Assembly: GCA_027306855.1 (NCBI GenBank)
Contig: DAHUYZ010000017.1
Coordinates: 1-38,234, forward strand
Source: Solirubrobacterales bacterium
GTDB lineage: Bacteria; Actinomycetota; Thermoleophilia; Solirubrobacterales; Solirubrobacteraceae
Length of the DNA: 38,234 bases
Reading direction: 5' to 3'
The notes beneath the pieces were generated by a model that did not search any database, was not told the origin of the DNA, and worked only from the letters and a program-made list of their open reading frames with translations. Every line of letters starts with the position of its first letter. Position 1 is the stretch's first letter. Below are positions 9,372 through 27,141 of this stretch, in pieces. The position numbers and the translations under genes were made by a program.

Positions 9372-9725
9372 ATGATCTCGATCACTGACAAGGGTGCGGA
9401 GAAGGTCCACGAGTTCTTGAGCGCCCAACAGGCGGACGTCAGCCTTGCGGGGCTGCGGGTCGGGGTGCGCGGTGGGGGCTGCTCGGGTTTTCAGTACCAG
9501 CTCGCCTTCGACGAGCGGCGCGACTCGGACGTCGTGTTCGAGAGCCACGGCCTTCAGTTGCTCGTCGATCGCGCGGCGCTGCAGTACGTCGACGGCTCGA
9601 TGATCGACTACCAGGAAAGCCTTCAGGGCGCGGGCTTCAAGGTCGAGAACCCCAACGTGGTCGCCGCTTGTGGCTGCGGGTCCTCGTTCAGAGTGGCCGA
9701 GGAAGAGCAAGTCTCAGCCGTCTGA
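9372..9725 (+). CDS. erpA: A-type iron-sulfur carrier (ErpA/IscA family)
   Basis: 117 residues. The first Cys is in RGGGCSGFQYQL and the other two in ACGCGSSFRV, giving the three-Cys pattern of A-type carriers that accept a cluster from the scaffold and insert it into client enzymes. The protein has the usual length with a short extra tail. ErpA and IscA cannot be told apart from motifs alone. It is divergent from bolA-grxD, which makes this a compact Fe-S maturation module. Confidence 0.92.
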   Translation: MISITDKGAEKVHEFLSAQQADVSLAGLRVGVRGGGCSGFQYQLAFDERRDSDVVFESHGLQLLVDRAALQYVDGSMIDYQESLQGAGFKVENPNVVAACGCGSSFRVAEEEQVSAV

Positions 9726-9756
9726 CGACACGTCCGATGAAGAGGGCCTCGGCCAT

Positions 9757-9858
9757 CTGACGTCCGAGGGCCAAGCAGGTCAAGGACGCAACGAGCGAAG
9801 TGTGCCGGCGCACATGAGCGAGTGAGGACGCAGAGATGCGCCGGTCCTCGGACGTCAG
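9757..9858. repeat. Structured intergenic element, copy A
   Basis: Lies between the convergent erpA and membrane protein genes. A 13-bp perfect inverted repeat (9757-9769 with 9846-9858), extendable to 16 bp with one G-U pair, encloses an AA bulge (9773-9774), a partly paired 7-nt segment, then a core. The core is AAGGACGCA (9782-9790), 10 nt, a 5-bp hairpin TGTGC/GCACA (9801-9814), then a purine-rich strand ending GAGGACGCA (9824-9832). The same core with the same spacing recurs at 24914-24989. It could be a structured RNA or a dispersed repeat; the active strand is unknown. Confidence 0.7.
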
Positions 9859-9884
9859 GCGGGCCGCCACGAGGGCGGCCCGCC
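9858..9884. terminator. Strong GC hairpin between convergent genes
   Basis: A perfect 11-bp stem, GGCGGGCCGCC (9858-9868) with GGCGGCCCGCC (9874-9884), and a 5-nt loop ACGAG. It is probably a bidirectional terminator for erpA and the facing gene. No long T-run follows, as is common in high-GC actinobacteria. Confidence 0.6.
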
Positions 9885-9943
9885 TTGGTGGGCCCGGTAT
9901 CTGTTGCTCGGACAGATAGAGCGGGCTTGCGCGCGCGTTCCCG

Positions 9944-10579
9944 TCAGTGCGCGGGCACCGGGGCTCCGTGCTCGTGGCGCTTGCGCCAGACCACGAAGAC
10001 GCTCTGCGGGTTGCGCAATGCGCCGGCCGCGGTGAGGATCGCGAAGCCGATCCCCGCAAGCAGCAGGGCGATGCCGACGACCACGCCGAACAGCGCCATC
10101 TGTTCGCCCATGTAGGAGGCGTTCAGGGCGGTCGACAGGGCGGTCTCGGTCACCCATACGTTACGCGCGGGGTTTTCGGCGGGCTTGCCTTTTTCCGTCA
10201 GCGCCGCCGATGCTTCGTTGGTTCCCTGCCCGTTCGCGCTCGCGTAGCGAGGCATCTGCGAGTAGGTCTTGCCGCCGGTCTGCTCGAGCGCGTGGATGCG
10301 CATGTACGTCGCGAAGCACCGCGCTGTGCTGCCGTTGTCAACGGCCTTGTTGGCGGCTATGCACGTCGGCAGTTCCAGCGACGCCGTGTTCAGCCCTGCC
10401 TTCTGCGCCTCGGCTGCGATTGCGCTCGGCGTCATGTCGGGCGTGCCCGTCACCGCCTGCTGTTTCAGAGCGGTCTGGACTTCGCTGCGTCCGTTCAATC
10501 CGATCACGATCGCCGCGACGCCGAATCCGATCAGCACAACCGCGGCAAGCGCTCCTCCGAGCTCCAGATACTTCCGCAT
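9944..10579 (-). CDS. Conserved membrane protein of unknown function
   Basis: 211 residues. One membrane segment near the N-terminus (about 8-28) and one near the C-terminus (about 165-190) flank an exterior-type domain of about 130 residues. That domain has two Cys (LPTCIAANKA and TARCFATY), which could form a disulfide, and the conserved-looking blocks LELPTCIAANKAVDNGS and NVWVTETALSTALN. I have seen similar uncharacterised proteins in actinobacteria but know no function. The start is ATG 10579; longer upstream reading in this frame is not protein-like. Confidence 0.7.
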   Translation of the reverse strand: MRKYLELGGALAAVVLIGFGVAAIVIGLNGRSEVQTALKQQAVTGTPDMTPSAIAAEAQKAGLNTASLELPTCIAANKAVDNGSTARCFATYMRIHALEQTGGKTYSQMPRYASANGQGTNEASAALTEKGKPAENPARNVWVTETALSTALNASYMGEQMALFGVVVGIALLLAGIGFAILTAAGALRNPQSVFVVWRKRHEHGAPVPAH

Positions 10580-20845: not shown

Positions 20846-23005
20846 ATGGCATCTACCAGCGATCACAGCGCAGTGCCGTCGAAAGCGACCACTGGCACAT
20901 GGGGACGACGGGCGCTGCTCGGGCTCTTCCTCGGCATGCTGATCGTGCTGCTGCTCGTCGACGGCTTCACGACAAAGACGGTCGGCTCCTCCGGCGTCGG
21001 CTCCACGGCCGCCACGCACTCGCGGCTGCAAGGCTCCCAGCCCGTGTTCGTGACCAACGGCCACGGCGGGCTCGTGTCGCGCATGCCCGCGCCGGACAAG
21101 CGCATCGCGCTGTCCTTCGACGATGGGCCGAGCCCCGAATGGACGCCGAAGATCGCCGCGATCCTGCGCGCCGAACACATCCCCGCTACGTTCTTCGAGG
21201 TCGGAAGCCAGGTCGTGCGCTACCCGAACGTCACCGCGATGCTCCACCGCTACGGCTTCGAACTCGGCAACCACACGTTCACCCACGTCGATCCCTCCGC
21301 CCTGCCGAGCTGGGAGGCGCAATTGCAGGTCGCCCTGACCGAGAGCGCGATCAGCGGGATTACCGGCGTCAAGCCGCGCCTCGTGCGCCCCCCCTACTCC
21401 TCCACGACCGAAGCGGTCACTCCCGCCCAGGAACGCGCCTGGGGAGCGCTCGCCTCGCACGGCTACGTGATCTCGCTCGCCAACTACGACACCGAAGACT
21501 GGGCGCGTCCTGGGGTAGGCACGATCCTCTCCAACGTGCTGAACTCGCCCGGCATCCGCCGTGGCGAAGGCGGGATTGTGATGATGCACGACGCAGGCGG
21601 CAACCGCTCGGAAACGGTGGCCGCGCTGCCCAAGCTGATCGCGGCTCTGCGCGCCCGCGGCTTCCAGTTCACGACCGTCTCCGGGATCGCGGGGATTCCC
21701 AGGTCGGTCGCAGAAGTGCCGGCAAGCGGCGGCGAGCGCATGCGCGGCAGCGCGTTCGACGCGATGCTCGCGCTCGCCGGGCTCGTTACGAACTGGCTCA
21801 CGCGGCTGGTCATGCTCGTCACGATCCTCGTCGGGCTGCGCATGCTCGCGGGACTGTTACTCGCGCGCACGCAGCGCGCGCGAGTACGGCATCTGCCGAT
21901 CGACTCCGACTACACGCCCGGCGTCTCGATCCTGGTGCCCGCCTACAACGAGGAGATCGGCATCGAGCGGGCCGTGCGCTCGCTTGCCGGCTCTCGCTAC
22001 GCCGGCGAGATGGAGATGATCGTCGTCGACGACGGCTCGAGCGACGGTACCGCCGCCATCGTGCAGAAGCTCGCGGCGCAGGGCGCCGGCCTCGAGCGTA
22101 TGCGGCTCTTGCGCCAGGCAAACGCCGGCAAGGCGGCAGCGCTCAATCGCGCGCTGGCGGCAAGCCGCCACGAGATCATCGTGACCGTCGACGCCGACAC
22201 GGTGTTCGAGCCAGACACGCTCGCACTGCTCGTACAGCGCTTCGCCGACCCCTCGGTGGGCGCGATCTCCGGCAACACGAAGGTTGGCAACCGACGCGGG
22301 CTGATCGGCCGCTGGCAGCACATCGAGTACGTGATGGGCTTCAATCTCGACCGGCGCATGTACGAGGTGCTCGGCTCGACGCCCACCGTCCCGGGCGCGA
22401 TCGGCGCGTTCCGCCGCCGGGCGCTCGCCGACATAGGCGGGGTCTCGGGCGCCACGCTCGCCGAGGACACCGACGTGACGCTCGACATCGGCCGCGCCGG
22501 CTGGCGCGTCGTATACGAGTCGCGCGCGCGCGCGTGGACGGAGGCGCCCTCCACCGTCAAGGCGCTCTACCGCCAGCGCTCGCGCTGGGCGTACGGAACG
22601 ATCCAGTCGATGTGGAAGCACCGCCGCGCGCTGTTCTCGGCTGAAGAGGGTGGACGCGGCGCGCGCGCCGTGCTCGCGATCGCGCTCTTCCAGGTGCTGC
22701 TGCCGCTCACCGCGCCGCTGATCGACCTGTTCGCGATCTACTCGATCGTGTTTCTGGACCCGATGCCGATCCTCGCCTTCTGGGTCGCCTTCAACGTCTT
22801 CCAGCTCGTGCTCGCCGTCGTCGCCTTCCGCCTCGACGGGGAGTCGATGCGCCCGCTGTGGGCGCTGCCCCTACAGCAGTTCCTACACCGGCAGATCTCA
22901 TACCTCGTCGTATACGACTCGCTCATCTCGGCGCTGCTCGGAAGTCGCCTGCGCTGGCGCCACTCCGAGCGCACGGGCGAGGTCGAGATGCCCGAGACGG
23001 CATGA
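20846..23005 (+). CDS. Polysaccharide deacetylase - family 2 glycosyltransferase fusion
   Basis: 719 residues. An N-terminal membrane segment (about 24-41) anchors an outside NodB-type deacetylase: SFDDGP (90-95) holds the catalytic and metal Asp, HTFTH (143-147) the metal His, and VMMHDAGG the last motif. A second membrane region (about 310-340) leads to a cytoplasmic GT2 domain with DDGSSDGT (395-402), VDADT (448-452), EDTD (540-543) and the processive-synthase motif QRSRW (577-581). More membrane segments end it. It should polymerise a beta-linked sugar such as N-acetylglucosamine and deacetylate it outside. ATG 20846 has a GAGGA ribosome site; ATG 20831 does not. It is coupled to the GH9 gene by ATGA. 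Confidence 0.9.
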   Translation: MASTSDHSAVPSKATTGTWGRRALLGLFLGMLIVLLLVDGFTTKTVGSSGVGSTAATHSRLQGSQPVFVTNGHGGLVSRMPAPDKRIALSFDDGPSPEWTPKIAAILRAEHIPATFFEVGSQVVRYPNVTAMLHRYGFELGNHTFTHVDPSALPSWEAQLQVALTESAISGITGVKPRLVRPPYSSTTEAVTPAQERAWGALASHGYVISLANYDTEDWARPGVGTILSNVLNSPGIRRGEGGIVMMHDAGGNRSETVAALPKLIAALRARGFQFTTVSGIAGIPRSVAEVPASGGERMRGSAFDAMLALAGLVTNWLTRLVMLVTILVGLRMLAGLLLARTQRARVRHLPIDSDYTPGVSILVPAYNEEIGIERAVRSLAGSRYAGEMEMIVVDDGSSDGTAAIVQKLAAQGAGLERMRLLRQANAGKAAALNRALAASRHEIIVTVDADTVFEPDTLALLVQRFADPSVGAISGNTKVGNRRGLIGRWQHIEYVMGFNLDRRMYEVLGSTPTVPGAIGAFRRRALADIGGVSGATLAEDTDVTLDIGRAGWRVVYESRARAWTEAPSTVKALYRQRSRWAYGTIQSMWKHRRALFSAEEGGRGARAVLAIALFQVLLPLTAPLIDLFAIYSIVFLDPMPILAFWVAFNVFQLVLAVVAFRLDGESMRPLWALPLQQFLHRQISYLVVYDSLISALLGSRLRWRHSERTGEVEMPETA

Positions 23006-24906
23006 TCGCAACGCCGCCCCAGCCGGTCGTCGCGCTCCAGGAGACCGCGGCGGTCATGTTCCGCGTCAACCAGGTCGGCTATCCCGAAGATGGCCCGAAG
23101 CGCATGCTCGTGATGGCCCGCCGGCGCGTCGCCAGTCGCCGCTTCTCGGTGCTCGACTCGCGCCGTCGTGTGGTGCTGCGCGGAAACGCCGGCTCCACGG
23201 GTCGTTGGAACGGCCGCTATGTCGTCTACACGCTCGACTTCAGTCGCGTGCGCAAGACCGGCCTCTACACGATCCGCTTCGACGGCTCGCGCTCCCCGCG
23301 TGTGCGCGTAGCGAATCCCGCCGGCCTTTACCGTGCGCTCGCCGACGGAGCGCTCTCGTTTCTGCAATCGCAGCGCGACGGGCCCGAAGTCATCCCGGGG
23401 GTCATGCATCGCCGCCCCGCCCACTTATCTGACTCATCGGCCTCCGTCTATGGGATCCCGCGCTTCCACAAGAACGCCCTTGCCGGCCCGCTCGTTCCGA
23501 CCGGCGAACACGTCAACGTCTCCGGCGGCTGGTTCGACGCGGGCGACTACCTGAAATTCGTCGAGACCGCGAGCTTCACGGACGTCGCGCTTCTGTACGC
23601 CGCGCGCGACTACTCGAGCGGCGTTTCAAACCCGGCGGCGCTGCTTGCCGAGGCCAGGCACGGCACCGACTGGCTGCTGCGCATGTGGGACCAGGCCAAA
23701 GGCGTGCTCTACATGCAGGTCGGCATCGGCGACGGCACCCACAGCGAAAGCGTGCTCGGTGATCACGACCTCTGGCGCCTGCCCCAGGCCGACGAACGCA
23801 CCAATCCCAAGCCAGGCTCGCCGAGGTACTTCATCGCGCACCGCCCCGTGTTCGCCGCCAACGCGCCCGGCCAACCGATCAGCCCCAACCTCGCCGGCCG
23901 TATGGCCGCCGCCCTTGGGCTGTGCGCGCAGGTGTTCGCTCACAGCGACCCCGCCTACGCGCAGCGTTGCCTGATCGCCGGCCAGACGATCTACGACCGA
24001 GCAGACACCAACCCGCATGGCGCGCTCGTGACGAGCGTCCCGTTCGGCTACTACACGGAGACCGAATGGCGCGACGACATGGAGCTGGGCGCGGTCGAGC
24101 TGTATCTCGGCACGGCCGCCATCGAAGCGTCCGCGCCGGCCGGCCTGCCGCACCCGCAGGCCCTCTACTACCTCTCGCCGGCGGGCTACTGGGCGAACGC
24201 GTACATCTTGGCCAAGCAGAGCGGTCAGGACTCGCTGAACGTGTATGACGTCTCCTCGCTCGCCGACACCGATCTCGCGCGCATCCTCACGACGCCCGTG
24301 GCGATCCAGGCGATCGAACACAACAACAGCGTCGAAGTCCCGACCGACATCCCCTCGCTGCTGAAGGACCGCCACGATCAGTTGCGCCTCGCGAACCGCC
24401 TGGCAAGGCGCGAACCGTTCGGCCTCGCCAACCCCGCGATGCCCACAGACACGGTCTCCCACGCGCTCGGCTATGCGGTTCAGACCAGGCTCTACGCGGC
24501 GATGGGCGGCGGCAGTTCCTTCCAAGCGCTCGGCCAGCGCCAGCTCGACTGGGTGCTGGGCGCCAACGCCTGGGGCACCTCGTTCGTAGTCGGCGCCGGC
24601 TCTGTCTTCCCGCACTGCCTCGCCTCGCAGATACCGAACCTCTCGGGCTCGCTCAGCGGACGGGGCGCGATCCTGCGCGGAGCGACCGTCAACGGCCCGG
24701 CCGGCGTCAAGGAGCTGCGCGAACTGGGCGCCCCTGAAGGCTTCAGACTCTGCCCTGCGCGCTCCCATCCCGACCCATTTCAGGCCCAGTCCGGCCACGG
24801 CCTCGGCTATCTAGACGACGTCCGCTCGGCCGTCACGTCCGAGCCGACCGACGACCTCGCCGCGCTGACGCTATTGGCATCAGCGCAGTTGGCAGCCGGC
24901 TCCTGA
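23002..24906 (+). CDS. Glycoside hydrolase family 9 (endoglucanase-like)
   Basis: 634 residues. The N-terminal Ig-like domain (FRVNQVGYPEDGPKRMLVM) and the GH9 barrel are both recognisable. The catalytic Asp pair is in GGWFDAGDYLKFV, DWVLGANAWGTSFVVG precedes the cleft, and the acid Glu is probably in VTSEPTDDLAAL near the end. ATG 23002 overlaps the synthase stop as ATGA. There is no signal peptide or lipobox, which is odd for a polysaccharidase; it may act inside, or leave by another route. A hydrolase coupled to a synthase recalls the cellulase of bacterial cellulose operons, which trims or releases chains. Confidence 0.85.
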   Translation: MIATPPQPVVALQETAAVMFRVNQVGYPEDGPKRMLVMARRRVASRRFSVLDSRRRVVLRGNAGSTGRWNGRYVVYTLDFSRVRKTGLYTIRFDGSRSPRVRVANPAGLYRALADGALSFLQSQRDGPEVIPGVMHRRPAHLSDSSASVYGIPRFHKNALAGPLVPTGEHVNVSGGWFDAGDYLKFVETASFTDVALLYAARDYSSGVSNPAALLAEARHGTDWLLRMWDQAKGVLYMQVGIGDGTHSESVLGDHDLWRLPQADERTNPKPGSPRYFIAHRPVFAANAPGQPISPNLAGRMAAALGLCAQVFAHSDPAYAQRCLIAGQTIYDRADTNPHGALVTSVPFGYYTETEWRDDMELGAVELYLGTAAIEASAPAGLPHPQALYYLSPAGYWANAYILAKQSGQDSLNVYDVSSLADTDLARILTTPVAIQAIEHNNSVEVPTDIPSLLKDRHDQLRLANRLARREPFGLANPAMPTDTVSHALGYAVQTRLYAAMGGGSSFQALGQRQLDWVLGANAWGTSFVVGAGSVFPHCLASQIPNLSGSLSGRGAILRGATVNGPAGVKELRELGAPEGFRLCPARSHPDPFQAQSGHGLGYLDDVRSAVTSEPTDDLAALTLLASAQLAAGS

Positions 24907-24913
24907 CGGCCGG

Positions 24914-24989
24914 AGGGCAAGCCTGGCAAGGACGCACCGACCGCGGTGTGCTCTGCACATGAGGGAGGGAGGACGCAGCCAGGCGCCCT
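24914..24989. repeat. Structured intergenic element, copy B
   Basis: Lies between the convergent GH9 and glutamine synthetase genes. A stem AGGGC (24914-24918), an AA bulge, and GCCTGGC (24921-24927) pair perfectly with GCCAGGC (24978-24984) and GCCCT (24985-24989). The core matches copy A: AAGGACGCA (24928-24936), 10 nt, hairpin TGTGC/GCACA (24947-24959) with a 3-nt loop, then TGAG-to-GGACGCA ending at 24977. Core spacings equal those of copy A while the outer stems differ in sequence but still pair. The 3' edge overlaps the glutamine synthetase stop codon. Confidence 0.7.
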
Positions 24990-27141
24990 ACTTGATGAAG
25001 AGCATCTCCGAGTACTTGGGCAGCGGCCAGAGGTCGTCCGCGACCAGCTTCTCCAGGCGATCGGCGATCTGGCGCACGTCGTCCATCGCGGGGATGACCG
25101 TGTCGCGCATGTAGGTCGCCCACTTCATCGCGCCGCTCGGCTGGTTATCGGCGAGGTTCGCGTCCTCGAGCTTGACGAGCGCGAAGTGCAGCTCCTTGAC
25201 GAGCGGCTCCACCTCGCCGACGAGCTCGTCCAGGCCGCTTGCCTTCAACTCGTTCAGATGCCTGACCGCGGCAGGCAGCAGCATCGTGCGAGCGATCTGA
25301 GCGGCCGTCTCGGCCTCGATGTTGATCTTCACGGCGTACTGCTCCGTAAAGACCTCCAGCCGCGACTCCAGCTCGCGCTTGGAGAGGACCTTGTACTTCT
25401 TGAACGCCGCCAGTGTCTGCTTGTCAATCAGCCACGGCAGCGCGTCAGGTGTCGTGCGCAGGTTCGCAAGGCCTCGCTTCTCGGCCTCTTCGTGCCACTC
25501 CTGCGAGTAGTTGTCTCCGCCGAACACGACCTGCTTGTTCGCCGTCCAGCTCTCCTTGACGACTTTCGCGACGGCCTTCTCCAGGCTTGCGCCCGGGCTC
25601 TTCAGCGCACGCTTCAGCGCGTCGGCCAGCTCGTCGATCGCCTCGGCCACGATCGTGTTCAGCACCGTGTTCGGCAGCGCCGGCGACATGCTCGACCCGA
25701 GCGCCCTGAACTCGAACTTGTTGCCCGTAAAGGCGAACGGGCTCGTCCGGTTGCGGTCCCCGCCGTGTAGCGGAAGCGCGGGCAGTACCGGCGTTCCAAG
25801 ACCCAAGAACGACCCCGGCTTGGACGCCTGCGCCTTGCCCGACTCGATCGCCCCATACACGCGCTCGAGCTCCGCGCCCAAGAAGATCGAGATGATCGCA
25901 GGCGGCGCCTCGTTCGCGCCGAGCCTGTGGTCCTGTCCGGGATTGGCGATCGACGCCCTCAGCAGCGCCTGGTGCTTGTTGACCGCTTGGATCACCGCCG
26001 TGCAGAAGAACAAGAACGACAGGTTCTCGTGCGGCGTGTCGCCAGGATCGAGCAGGTTCAGGCCCGTGTCCGTGCCCATCGACCAGTTGTTGTGCTTGCC
26101 CGACCCATTGACTCCGGCAAACGGCTTCTCGTGCAGCAGGCAAACCAGGCCGTATTTGCGCGCCACGTTCTGCAGCAGCTGCATCGTCAGCATCTGATGG
26201 TCGGCGCCCACATTCGAGTTCTCGAAGATCGGTGCGATCTCGTACTGGTTCGGCGCGACCTCGTTGTGTCTCGTCTTGACCGGCACGCCCAGCTTCGCCA
26301 GCTCACGCTCGGTCTCGAGCATGCACGCGAGGATCCTCTCGGGGATCGACCCGAAGTAGTGGTCGTCGAGCTCGTGCCCCTTCGGCGGCTTTGCGCCGAA
26401 CAGCGTCCTGCCGGTCGTCAGCAGGTCAGGGCGCTCGAAGTAGTACTGCTCGTCGATCAAGAAGTACTCCTGCTCGCAGCCGATCGTCGTGAACACTCTC
26501 GCGGCGTCGCTGATGCCGAGCAGCTTGAGCGCCCGCACCGCCGCGCCCGACAGCGCGTCCATCGAGCGCAGCAGAGGGATCTTGTGGTCGAGCGCCTCGC
26601 CCGTCCACGACGTGAACGCCGTCGGGATGCACAGCAGCGCACCGTTCGGGTTCTCGAGGATGAACGCCGGGCTCGTCGGGTCCCAGGCGGTGTAGCCGCG
26701 GGCCTCGAACGTCGCCCTGATCCCGCCCGTCGGGAAGCTCGATGCGTCCGGCTCGCCCTGGATCAGCTCCTTGCCCGAGAACTCGGCGATCGCGGTGCCG
26801 TCGCCGGCCGGCCCATAGAAGGAGTCGTGCTTCTCGGCCGTCGACCCCGTCAGCGGCTGGAACCAGTGCGTGAAGTGGGTAGCACCCCGCTCCATCGCCC
26901 ATTCCTTCATCGCCTGCGCAACCCCGTCGGCGAGTGTCGTGTCGAGCGCCTCGCCGCGCTCCAATGTGCGCTGCAGCGCCTTGAACACGTGCTTCGGCAG
27001 CCTGCGGCGCTGAACCGCGACGCTGAACACGTTCGAGGCAAAGATCTGGTTGTCGGGAAGGGTCAGGTCCTGCGAGCCGAGCGCGCTCCCGTTGGCGCTC
27101 CACTGCGCGGCTGTCACGTTGTGCTGGCGGATCCTTGGCAT
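24988..27141 (-). CDS. glnN: Type III glutamine synthetase
   Basis: 717 residues, the size of the GSIII class (about 700-730), far longer than the GSI enzymes of about 450-470 residues. It makes glutamine from glutamate, ammonia and [17 protein letters not shown] and the [13 protein letters not shown] block at the N-terminus are GSIII-specific. Active-site blocks [40 protein letters not shown] and [17 protein letters not shown] are all present. An AGGAGG lies 14 nt before ATG 27141, a rather long spacing, and overlaps the end of a small upstream frame. Adenylylation control as in GSI is not expected. Confidence 0.95.

Follow-up and report, generated by a model that had tools for sequence, protein, structure and literature searches.

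We show that two palindromic sequences, copies A and B, in the stretch of 38,234 nucleotides analysed here (the window; Solirubrobacterales bacterium, assembly GCA_027306855.1, contig DAHUYZ010000017.1) are members of a dispersed family of single hairpins of ~110 nt in Thermoleophilia. The family is apparently undescribed so far, and its carriers are soil bacteria of a large group that has received little study. Repeated palindromes at gene ends are commonly regarded as the tails of mRNAs or the remains of transposons; here, the strand that folds can be read from sequence alone, and in the window's genus it appears to be the one antisense to the gene that the element follows.

Two related hairpins in the window

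A search within the window aligned copies A and B with 76% identity over 83 nt (E 1.7e-11), the next best window match to B after A having an E-value of 0.36. The original prediction of a shared core with constant spacing was borne out, with the 18 nt after the hairpin in register, as was that of a common hairpin stem (GTGTGC/GCACAT) in which only the loop is altered (CGGC in A, TCT in B). Copy B, from 24914 to 24989, folds as AGGGC-AA-GCCTGGC ... GCCAGGC-GCCCT with -39.8 kcal/mol and a z of -3.7, none of 200 shuffles being as good; the longer stretch 24904-24995, with 16 nt more, gave only a z of -1.8, with 9 of 200 shuffles as good. In copy A the outer stem extends to CTGACGTCC.../...GGACGTCAG, and the element is larger than 24914-24989. 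Relative to the family, copy B retains little of the outer stem's far arm, which is mostly lost at the stop of the glutamine-synthetase-III gene. The outer stem had been described as pairing perfectly in B; it does pair as drawn, but it is a shortened substitute for the family outer stem. The inner stem of A, GCAGGTC/GAGATGC, is imperfect, with two of seven positions being G.A and G.G. Similarly, the AA reported as a bulge is present, while in the family it belongs to an internal loop, CAAG/CGCCG. Both copies do lie between convergent genes, as called by our own gene caller (Table 1). Directly behind copy A, at ~9858-9888 of the window, stands a second GC-rich hairpin, GGCGGGCCGCC ACGA GGGCGGCCCGCC TT, which looks like an ordinary terminator.

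Table 1 Features of copies A and B and their flanking genes (window coordinates).
Feature	Position	Strand	Basis
Copy B, full extent of model match; most of the outer stem's far arm lost	24900-24996	+	Covariance model R1, 75.6 bits, E 3.2e-14, own genome
Copy B outer stem, 5' arm AGGGC (partner arm at 24985-24989)	24914-24918	+	Fold
Copy B AA, part of conserved CAAG/CGCCG internal loop	24919-24920	+	Fold and family alignment
Copy B stem P2, 5' arm GCCTGGC	24921-24927	+	Fold and covariation
Copy B core, 5' side AAGGACGCA, conserved internal loop	24928-24936	+	Column conservation 0.87-0.99, 149 copies
Copy B core ladder, 5' side CC GA CC GCG: 2-bp helices with tandem G.A between	24937-24945	+	Two-sided changes in all four ladder pairs
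Copy B apical hairpin P3, 5' arm GTGTGC	24946-24951	+	Fold and covariation
Copy B apical loop TCT	24952-24954	+	Fold
Copy B apical hairpin P3, 3' arm GCACAT	24955-24960	+	Fold and covariation
Copy B core ladder, 3' side GA GG GA GG	24961-24968	+	Covariation, 149-copy column counts
Copy B core, 3' side GAGGACGCA, second copy of AGGACGCA	24969-24977	+	149-copy column counts
Copy B stem P2, 3' arm GCCAGGC	24978-24984	+	Fold and covariation
Copy B outer stem, 3' arm GCCCT, overlapping the stop codon (24988-24990) of the minus-strand gene	24985-24989	+	Fold, gene calls
Copy A, full extent of model match; outer stem complete, CTGACGTCC.../...GGACGTCAG	9754-9856	+	Covariance model R1, 97.3 bits, E 1.8e-19
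Type III glutamine synthetase, 3' end abuts copy B	24988-27141	-	Pfam GSIII_N, Gln-synt_C-ter, Gln-synt_C
Glycosyl hydrolase family 9, convergent, left of copy B	23002-24906	+	Pfam PF00759, own gene calls
Fe-S biosynthesis family gene, convergent, left of copy A	9372-9725	+	Pfam PF01521
Convergent gene right of copy A, 88 nt from element, without Pfam match	9944-10579	-	Gene calls

Conserved architecture and covariation

The family has a fixed order of parts: an outer stem P1 of ~18 bp, the CAAG/CGCCG internal loop, the 7-bp stem P2, a 9x9 internal loop carrying AGGACGC in both arms, a ladder in which tandem G.A pairs flank two 2-bp helices, and an apical hairpin of 6 bp, whose loop has 3 nt in 91 of the 119 copies that could be read by pattern. 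Two-sided changes were found in 25 of 33 pairs of a plain MAFFT alignment of 21 copies (A1), with standard pairs making up 91.9% of the pair cells. None of 500 shuffles of A1 was as high on any of five covariation measures, and sliding the partner columns by 1-3 positions reduced the paired cells to 27-49%. We examined 149 of the 212 genus matches (E <= 1e-4), the remainder being largely weaker; matches shorter than 87 nt were left out of the position, strand, 149-copy covariation, border and ortholog analyses. In a structure-free alignment of these 149 copies, the top 15 column pairs by corrected mutual information were all helix pairs, and the ladder pairs covary among G-C, C-G, A-U and G-U. 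Neither A1 nor the 149-copy MAFFT alignment was fitted to the model, as opposed to alignments A2-A4. The tandem mismatches are kept as well, with G.A in 126 and A.G in 138 of the 149 copies, and the A.A of the AGGACGC loop in 146. The element thus has covarying pairs beyond controls, as sought in a structured RNA. Selection on structure, as proposed for A and B, is supported by the covariation in both the 21- and the 149-sequence alignments, and the same tests exclude chance as the source of the likeness between the two copies.

The helix ends at a sharp border ~4 bp beyond the last pair of the model. This border is the same in 79 copies with the stop codon inside P1 and in 30 copies with the stop 4-8 nt off. 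Outside the border, the average flank profile of the genus copies revealed no conserved base, promoter or T-run on either side.

Distribution

Neither the 38-kb window nor eight loci representing other copies and genomes had a match at the gathering threshold of Rfam 15; from the sequence alone, too, the element had not been recognised as a known riboswitch or ncRNA class. When 201 bases around B were scanned by E-value, 3 matches resulted, all far under gathering scores, and assignment to a known RNA family was rejected for want of a match at threshold. We recognised no description of the family in the parts of the open-access literature consulted; it may have been described elsewhere before.

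When B was used as the query of a DNA search, 21 of 41 genomes were matched, its own included. In the genome of the window, a covariance model built from A1 (R1) gave at least 31 matches at E <= 0.01, the best 150 of 3615 candidates having been scored. Within the genus, with at most the best 150 candidates scored per genome, 21 of 24 genomes (own included) were matched, with 0 to 29 matches per genome at E <= 1e-4, and three genomes of 92-97% completeness had no copy. With the best 13 candidates scored per genome, at least 145 of 300 Thermoleophilia genomes were matched at E <= 1e-5, in 67 of 110 genera, and at least 15 of 296 genomes of a phylum sample, 11 of them from Thermoleophilia and 4, with weaker matches, from one other family (f13). 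Eighty named contigs, covering 80 of the 116 stretches listed by a pattern scan, gave 43 model matches at E <= 0.01. Among the contigs listed, the matches came from Solirubrobacterales, other Thermoleophilia, unplaced Actinomycetota and Conexibacter arvalis (4 matches at E <= 0.001 in DSM 23288), with one weak match in Natrialba (E 0.007); the Streptomyces and Nocardia contigs listed had no model match. Plasmid and phage collections had no match to copy A. Two copies on the contig CAJCHW010000209.1 (L104), a record titled 'Chlamydiae bacterium', have coordinates identical to those on contig C209 of the genus genome G006, and the record is probably a mislabelled MAG.

Position and polarity relative to genes

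Genes were called by our own codon-usage script, trained on the window or, for copies of the more distant genomes G126, G208 and G148, on G126 stretches. Of the 149 genus copies examined, 141 could be judged, and in 134 of these the right-hand gene is encoded on the minus strand; for 112 of the 134, the distance from the model end to the stop codon of that gene is -3 to +8 nt. The left side is free, with broad distances: 47 copies are in convergent gaps ('+ E -', where E is the element), 73 between co-directional genes ('- E -') and 1 is '- E +'. The survey places copies by stop codons, as the suggestion of a location at gene 3' ends had anticipated. Convergent placement, as seen for A and B, is not the rule, and the usual fixed partner is the opposite-strand gene. 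Of 120 judged copies, 47 lie in convergent gaps, compared with 16 of 87 gene 3' ends sampled from the genus; against the convergent background of a G126 sample, 74 of 221 (33%), the enrichment would be slight.

Outside the genus, both the stop-codon lock and the polarity loosen. A second set of 123 copies, overlapping in part with the first and extending to other genera, had the right-hand gene on the minus strand in 94 and on the plus strand in 14 of 108 judged copies. Polarity was kept in 11 of 11 fetched copies of G126, with the stop at -3 to +8 nt in 3 and at 12-51 nt in the others, and in 8 of 10 copies of G208. The distant G148 has a minus-strand stop on the right in only 4 of 8 copies, two of which also have a plus-strand stop on the left; 3 of the 8 have only a plus-strand stop on the left, at 25 nt, and 1 has neither.

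The abutting genes are varied and often housekeeping-like. They include what we take, from C-terminal motifs and neighbours, to be guaA, nrdJ, rpoZ, secA and sufB, with guaA and a ribosomal-protein operon presumably being examples of co-directional sites. The stop codon is TAG in 42 of 104 abutting genes and in 64 of 203 others, which is no clear excess, and a TAG preference was dropped on these counts. CTRR was considered as an insertion target, the ends often being CTGA or CTAG, and was dropped as the border is the same where the stop is 4-8 nt away, and most of those copies, by eye, have no CTRR end.

Which strand folds

Read antisense to the abutting gene, P1 contains 176 G.U versus 19 A.C and 65 G.A versus 7 C.U. 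Across all helices, G.U and A.C number 121 and 19 in '- E -' copies and 89 and 14 in '+ E -' copies, and a set of 21 copies from the plain DNA search has 33 and 10. A fold of the mRNA strand predicts an excess of G.U over A.C on that strand, and since the opposite is seen, these counts indicate that selection acts on the strand antisense to the abutting gene, as RNA or single-stranded DNA. The ratio of G.U to A.C is as high in '- E -' as in '+ E -' copies, and a single-stranded DNA substrate would explain it equally well. The antisense strand is predicted to be more stable in 128 of 149 copies with RNA parameters and in 138 of 149 with DNA parameters; the sense strand also folds strongly (mean -55 versus -61 kcal/mol).

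An mRNA 3'-end role had been suggested for A and B. While the 3'-end position holds, a role in the upstream mRNA is unfit for about half of the copies, given the 73 '- E -' versus 47 '+ E -' among 149 and the antisense fold. A 3'-UTR element of a gene running into the element on the folding strand was likewise rejected as the general case on account of the 73 '- E -' copies.

Evolution of sites and multiplication

The guaA site carries the element in 7 of 22 genus genomes, in the same place and orientation, and the other 15 are without it by model search. Presence on a guaA/rplM tree, in which 9 of 19 inner branches are open, takes six changes, no fewer than with shuffled labels. The start of the guaA site in G012 resembles that of G022 and by eye is a decayed copy. 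The nrdJ site was readable in 18 of the 20 genomes with an nrdJ match. Full copies were found in G001, G012, G013 and G014 and, as tandem pairs, in G006 and G019; G020 has a shortened copy of 36 bits, and remnants, by eye only, are present in G002 and G018. Eight genomes have nothing there, and the G023 contig ends at the stop codon. At the nrdJ site of G017, a plain hairpin (by eye) stands instead of the element. Since three genomes of 92-97% completeness are copy-free and the guaA site is filled in 7 of 22, scattered on the tree, the element is dispensable.

Orthologous copies at nrdJ and guaA differ by paired changes. Their P1 identity is 0.61, compared with 0.475 for random copies of the same genomes (the maximum of 500 nulls being 0.511), and their core identity is no higher than that of random copies (0.786 versus 0.776). 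The core was matched best by the orthologous copy of the other genome in 35 of 75 comparisons, when 15.5 were expected. Mean similarity in the genus is 0.617 within and 0.634 between genomes, and recent within-genome spread was not found on average; the nearest neighbour lies in the same genome for 31 of 149 copies versus 12 expected. Tandem copies 93-114 nt apart do occur. In G148, a 181-base query matched six copies over 161-181 bases, four being 92-93% identical to the query copy, together with two partial matches (eight copies in all) and one self-palindromic match; this search of the genome returned no element-like ends beyond whole copies. Eight copies of G126, set side by side, are near-copies that share most of their sequence. 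The family behaves as REP/MITE-like in its evolution: it is old, its orthologous sites are often empty, and it is sometimes multiplied.

Comparison with known repeats

By location, the closest known kind is the REP repeats. REP and BIME sequences are, like the element, dispersed intergenic palindromes found mostly in co-directional or convergent gaps by the 3' end of an upstream ORF; their ends can supply a stop codon, their stems vary and their occurrence is patchy between species, as far as the portions of the literature consulted describe them. According to the sections consulted of a REP survey, GTAG- and CGTC-tagged REPs are palindromes of 20-40 bp with an unpaired GTAG or CGTC tag, lie close to upstream ORF 3' ends and have termini supplying TAG stops; CGTC repeats occur in five phyla and GTAG repeats in Proteobacteria, Cyanobacteria, Chloroflexi and the PVC group, and 'Actinobacteria' occurs 0 times in the main text as accessed (PMC3733652). 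The element shares with REPs the intergenic position near ORF 3' ends and the rarity in divergent gaps, where 1 of 149 copies lies. In contrast to REPs, it is ~110 nt long, has a multi-loop conserved core with tandem G.A pairs and a usual polarity, and folds antisense to the gene. No conserved tag of the REP kind was seen beyond the border of the genus copies. The RAYT/Y1 domain (PF01797) had no match in 23 of 24 genus genomes, which are incomplete, and was matched in 5 of 14 control genomes; a REP with its RAYT was rejected for the genus on these 23 of 24. The only genus genome with a full Y1 transposase match (L360, G007:C232) has it at 132 bits. As the element lacks the size, tag and transposase features of REPs, we class it as a dispersed palindromic repeat outside any named family.

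MITEs such as RUP, NEMIS/Correia and ERIC are also of ~100 bp, form one long hairpin and are dispersed beside genes, but their defining traits are a target duplication and terminal repeats shared with a parent IS, neither of which was seen at the nrdJ sites or in G148. At the nrdJ sites alone, the copies have, by eye, TGA on the gene side and TCA on the far side. To our knowledge, neither stems that evolve by compensatory change nor a conserved non-canonical core is a hallmark of MITEs. Intrinsic terminators resemble the element in being GC-rich hairpins behind a stop codon; the element differs by the missing T-run in its average flank profile, its conserved sequence core and its strand asymmetry. 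Integron attC sites follow the gene of their cassette, the bottom strand being antisense to that gene, and have the end boxes RYYYAAC / GTTRRRY; such boxes are absent from the border profile of the genus copies. No cassette arrays were seen, in contrast to attC, and several neighbours are housekeeping-like. The likeness is that one strand is used and folded, with the stem sequence varying and the structure staying, and in the portion of the attC study consulted it is the bottom strand that is used (PMC2727003).

Possible role and alternative explanations

As a tentative reading, which we hold somewhat below an even chance, the element may act in place as a polar 3'-boundary element. Transcription would enter the 3' end of a gene from the wrong side, by convergent read-through or as stray antisense, and the emerging antisense RNA would fold into the hairpin. 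The conserved G.A-rich core could then stop the polymerase, recruit a factor or mark the RNA for cleavage. In the sense direction, which folds less well, the gene's own transcript would be less disturbed, and the nearest place to guard a gene end would be right behind its stop codon. This model fits three constraints, namely the stop-codon lock in the genus, the fold of the antisense strand and the upkeep at orthologous sites. We counted in its favour the covariation, position and polarity, the folding-strand bias, in-place maintenance and the share of convergent gaps, and against it the polarity in G148, the stop distances in G126, the three copy-free genomes, the many empty guaA sites, the core identity of 0.786 versus 0.776 and the strong sense-strand fold. 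With no promoter or T-run in the flank profile, antisense RNA would need stray transcription in the 73 '- E -' copies. A wider proposal, which we consider doubtful, is that of a class of polar boundary elements in which a conserved RNA fold guards 3' ends while hindering the sense direction less, serving at most ~30 genes per genome, class-wide and spread as a repeat.

Held at the same strength as the boundary reading is a mobile, non-autonomous DNA hairpin of the REP or attC sort, one strand of which would fold when single-stranded and be acted on by a putative transposase or recombinase, with insertion by gene ends as the outcome; selection on folding would then be selection for mobility. 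The many dispersed copies, the sharp border, the filled and empty orthologous sites, the tandem copies 93-114 nt apart, the eight near-identical-looking copies of G126 and the multiplication in G148, with copies at gene ends in either orientation, would all follow, as would a folding-strand bias that is independent of transcription context and apical loops of mostly 3 nt (91 of 119 readable). REP ends, too, lie at ORF 3' ends and can supply a TAG stop, as stated in the survey sections consulted (PMC3733652). However, the paired changes at orthologous sites suggest selection on folding after insertion, and the Y1 transposase is present in 1 of 24 genus genomes. G148 lacks element-like ends beyond whole copies, copy A is unmatched in plasmid and phage collections, and the nrdJ copies are without direct target duplication, TGA facing TCA across the stem (by eye). 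An ordinary hairpin terminator or a 3' stabiliser of the abutting gene's own mRNA is unlikely: where the antisense strand has G.U and G.A the sense stems have A.C and U.C, by nine to one in the outer stem, no T-run appears in the flank profile, and 73 of 149 copies lie between co-directional genes. The position right behind the stop codon, the strong sense-strand stems and the plain hairpin at the G017 nrdJ site (by eye) would suit it.

A replication feature, that is, a polar single-strand hairpin read by the replisome, a primase or a repair factor, seems very unlikely. Its support comes from the closed genome G126, in which the folding strand of 25 of 27 copies coincides with the leading-strand template, exceeding the 62% bias in gene direction (142 of 228 genes in 20 sampled G126 stretches); this count assumes the origin at the contig start, which we presume from a dnaA-like first gene, and the terminus near 1.6 Mb. 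The skew of G126 is weak, and 10 copies of G208, for which the origin was not located, show no such polarity while 8 of the 10 keep the gene lock. Finally, template switching in replication might recopy one arm and maintain the palindrome by mutation alone, giving covariation without selection. Agreement of the far arm with the host stop codon (Watson-Crick 0.90, 0.95 and 0.99 at the three codon positions versus 0.90, 0.49 and 0.50 when shuffled) points that way, but the conserved mismatches (tandem G.A, A.A, G.G) stay uncorrected and a nine-to-one asymmetry of G.U over A.C would be unexpected, and this reading, too, is very unlikely.

The polar boundary model leaves unexplained the many empty sites and the break in polarity in G148. 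Insertion at gene ends in either orientation, followed by selective retention of one orientation, may combine it with mobility, for which the small G148 sample offers a hint only. Should the antisense fold hold up in experiments, the family would be either a repeat kept to police antisense transcription where genes end, or a DNA hairpin mobilised by a novel enzyme.

Variants of the element

Five copies of the window's genome, G000 (L031, L033, L034, L039 and L048), have an extended apical hairpin with TAACGGGTCC. This variant is absent from the other genus copies among the 149 examined and is a lineage-specific subtype of the window's genome. Three further G000 copies (L038, L042 and L050), two found by pattern and the third by eye, contain an extra small CCGACGGCAAAGCCGTTGG-like hairpin just 5' of the AGGACGC core. 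In other families (L365-L390 of G126, L217 and L224-L226), P1 has a GA / GCA internal loop, GCCGAAAAGC ... GCTTTGCAGGC, which most copies of the window's genus do not have. The G148 copies L363, L367, L370, L373, L376, L379, L382 and L385 are ~165 nt long with an added outer stem, CTAGTG(T/C)CCCGAT ... ATCGGGACACTAG, and at L373 both convergent genes end in the CTAG termini. An ATCG / GAGG-like arrangement replaces the CAAG/CGCCG loop, by eye, in the guaA copies L264, L265, L267, L275 and L276 and in copies of G208; the presence of this subtype at orthologous guaA sites and in another genus hints at vertical descent.
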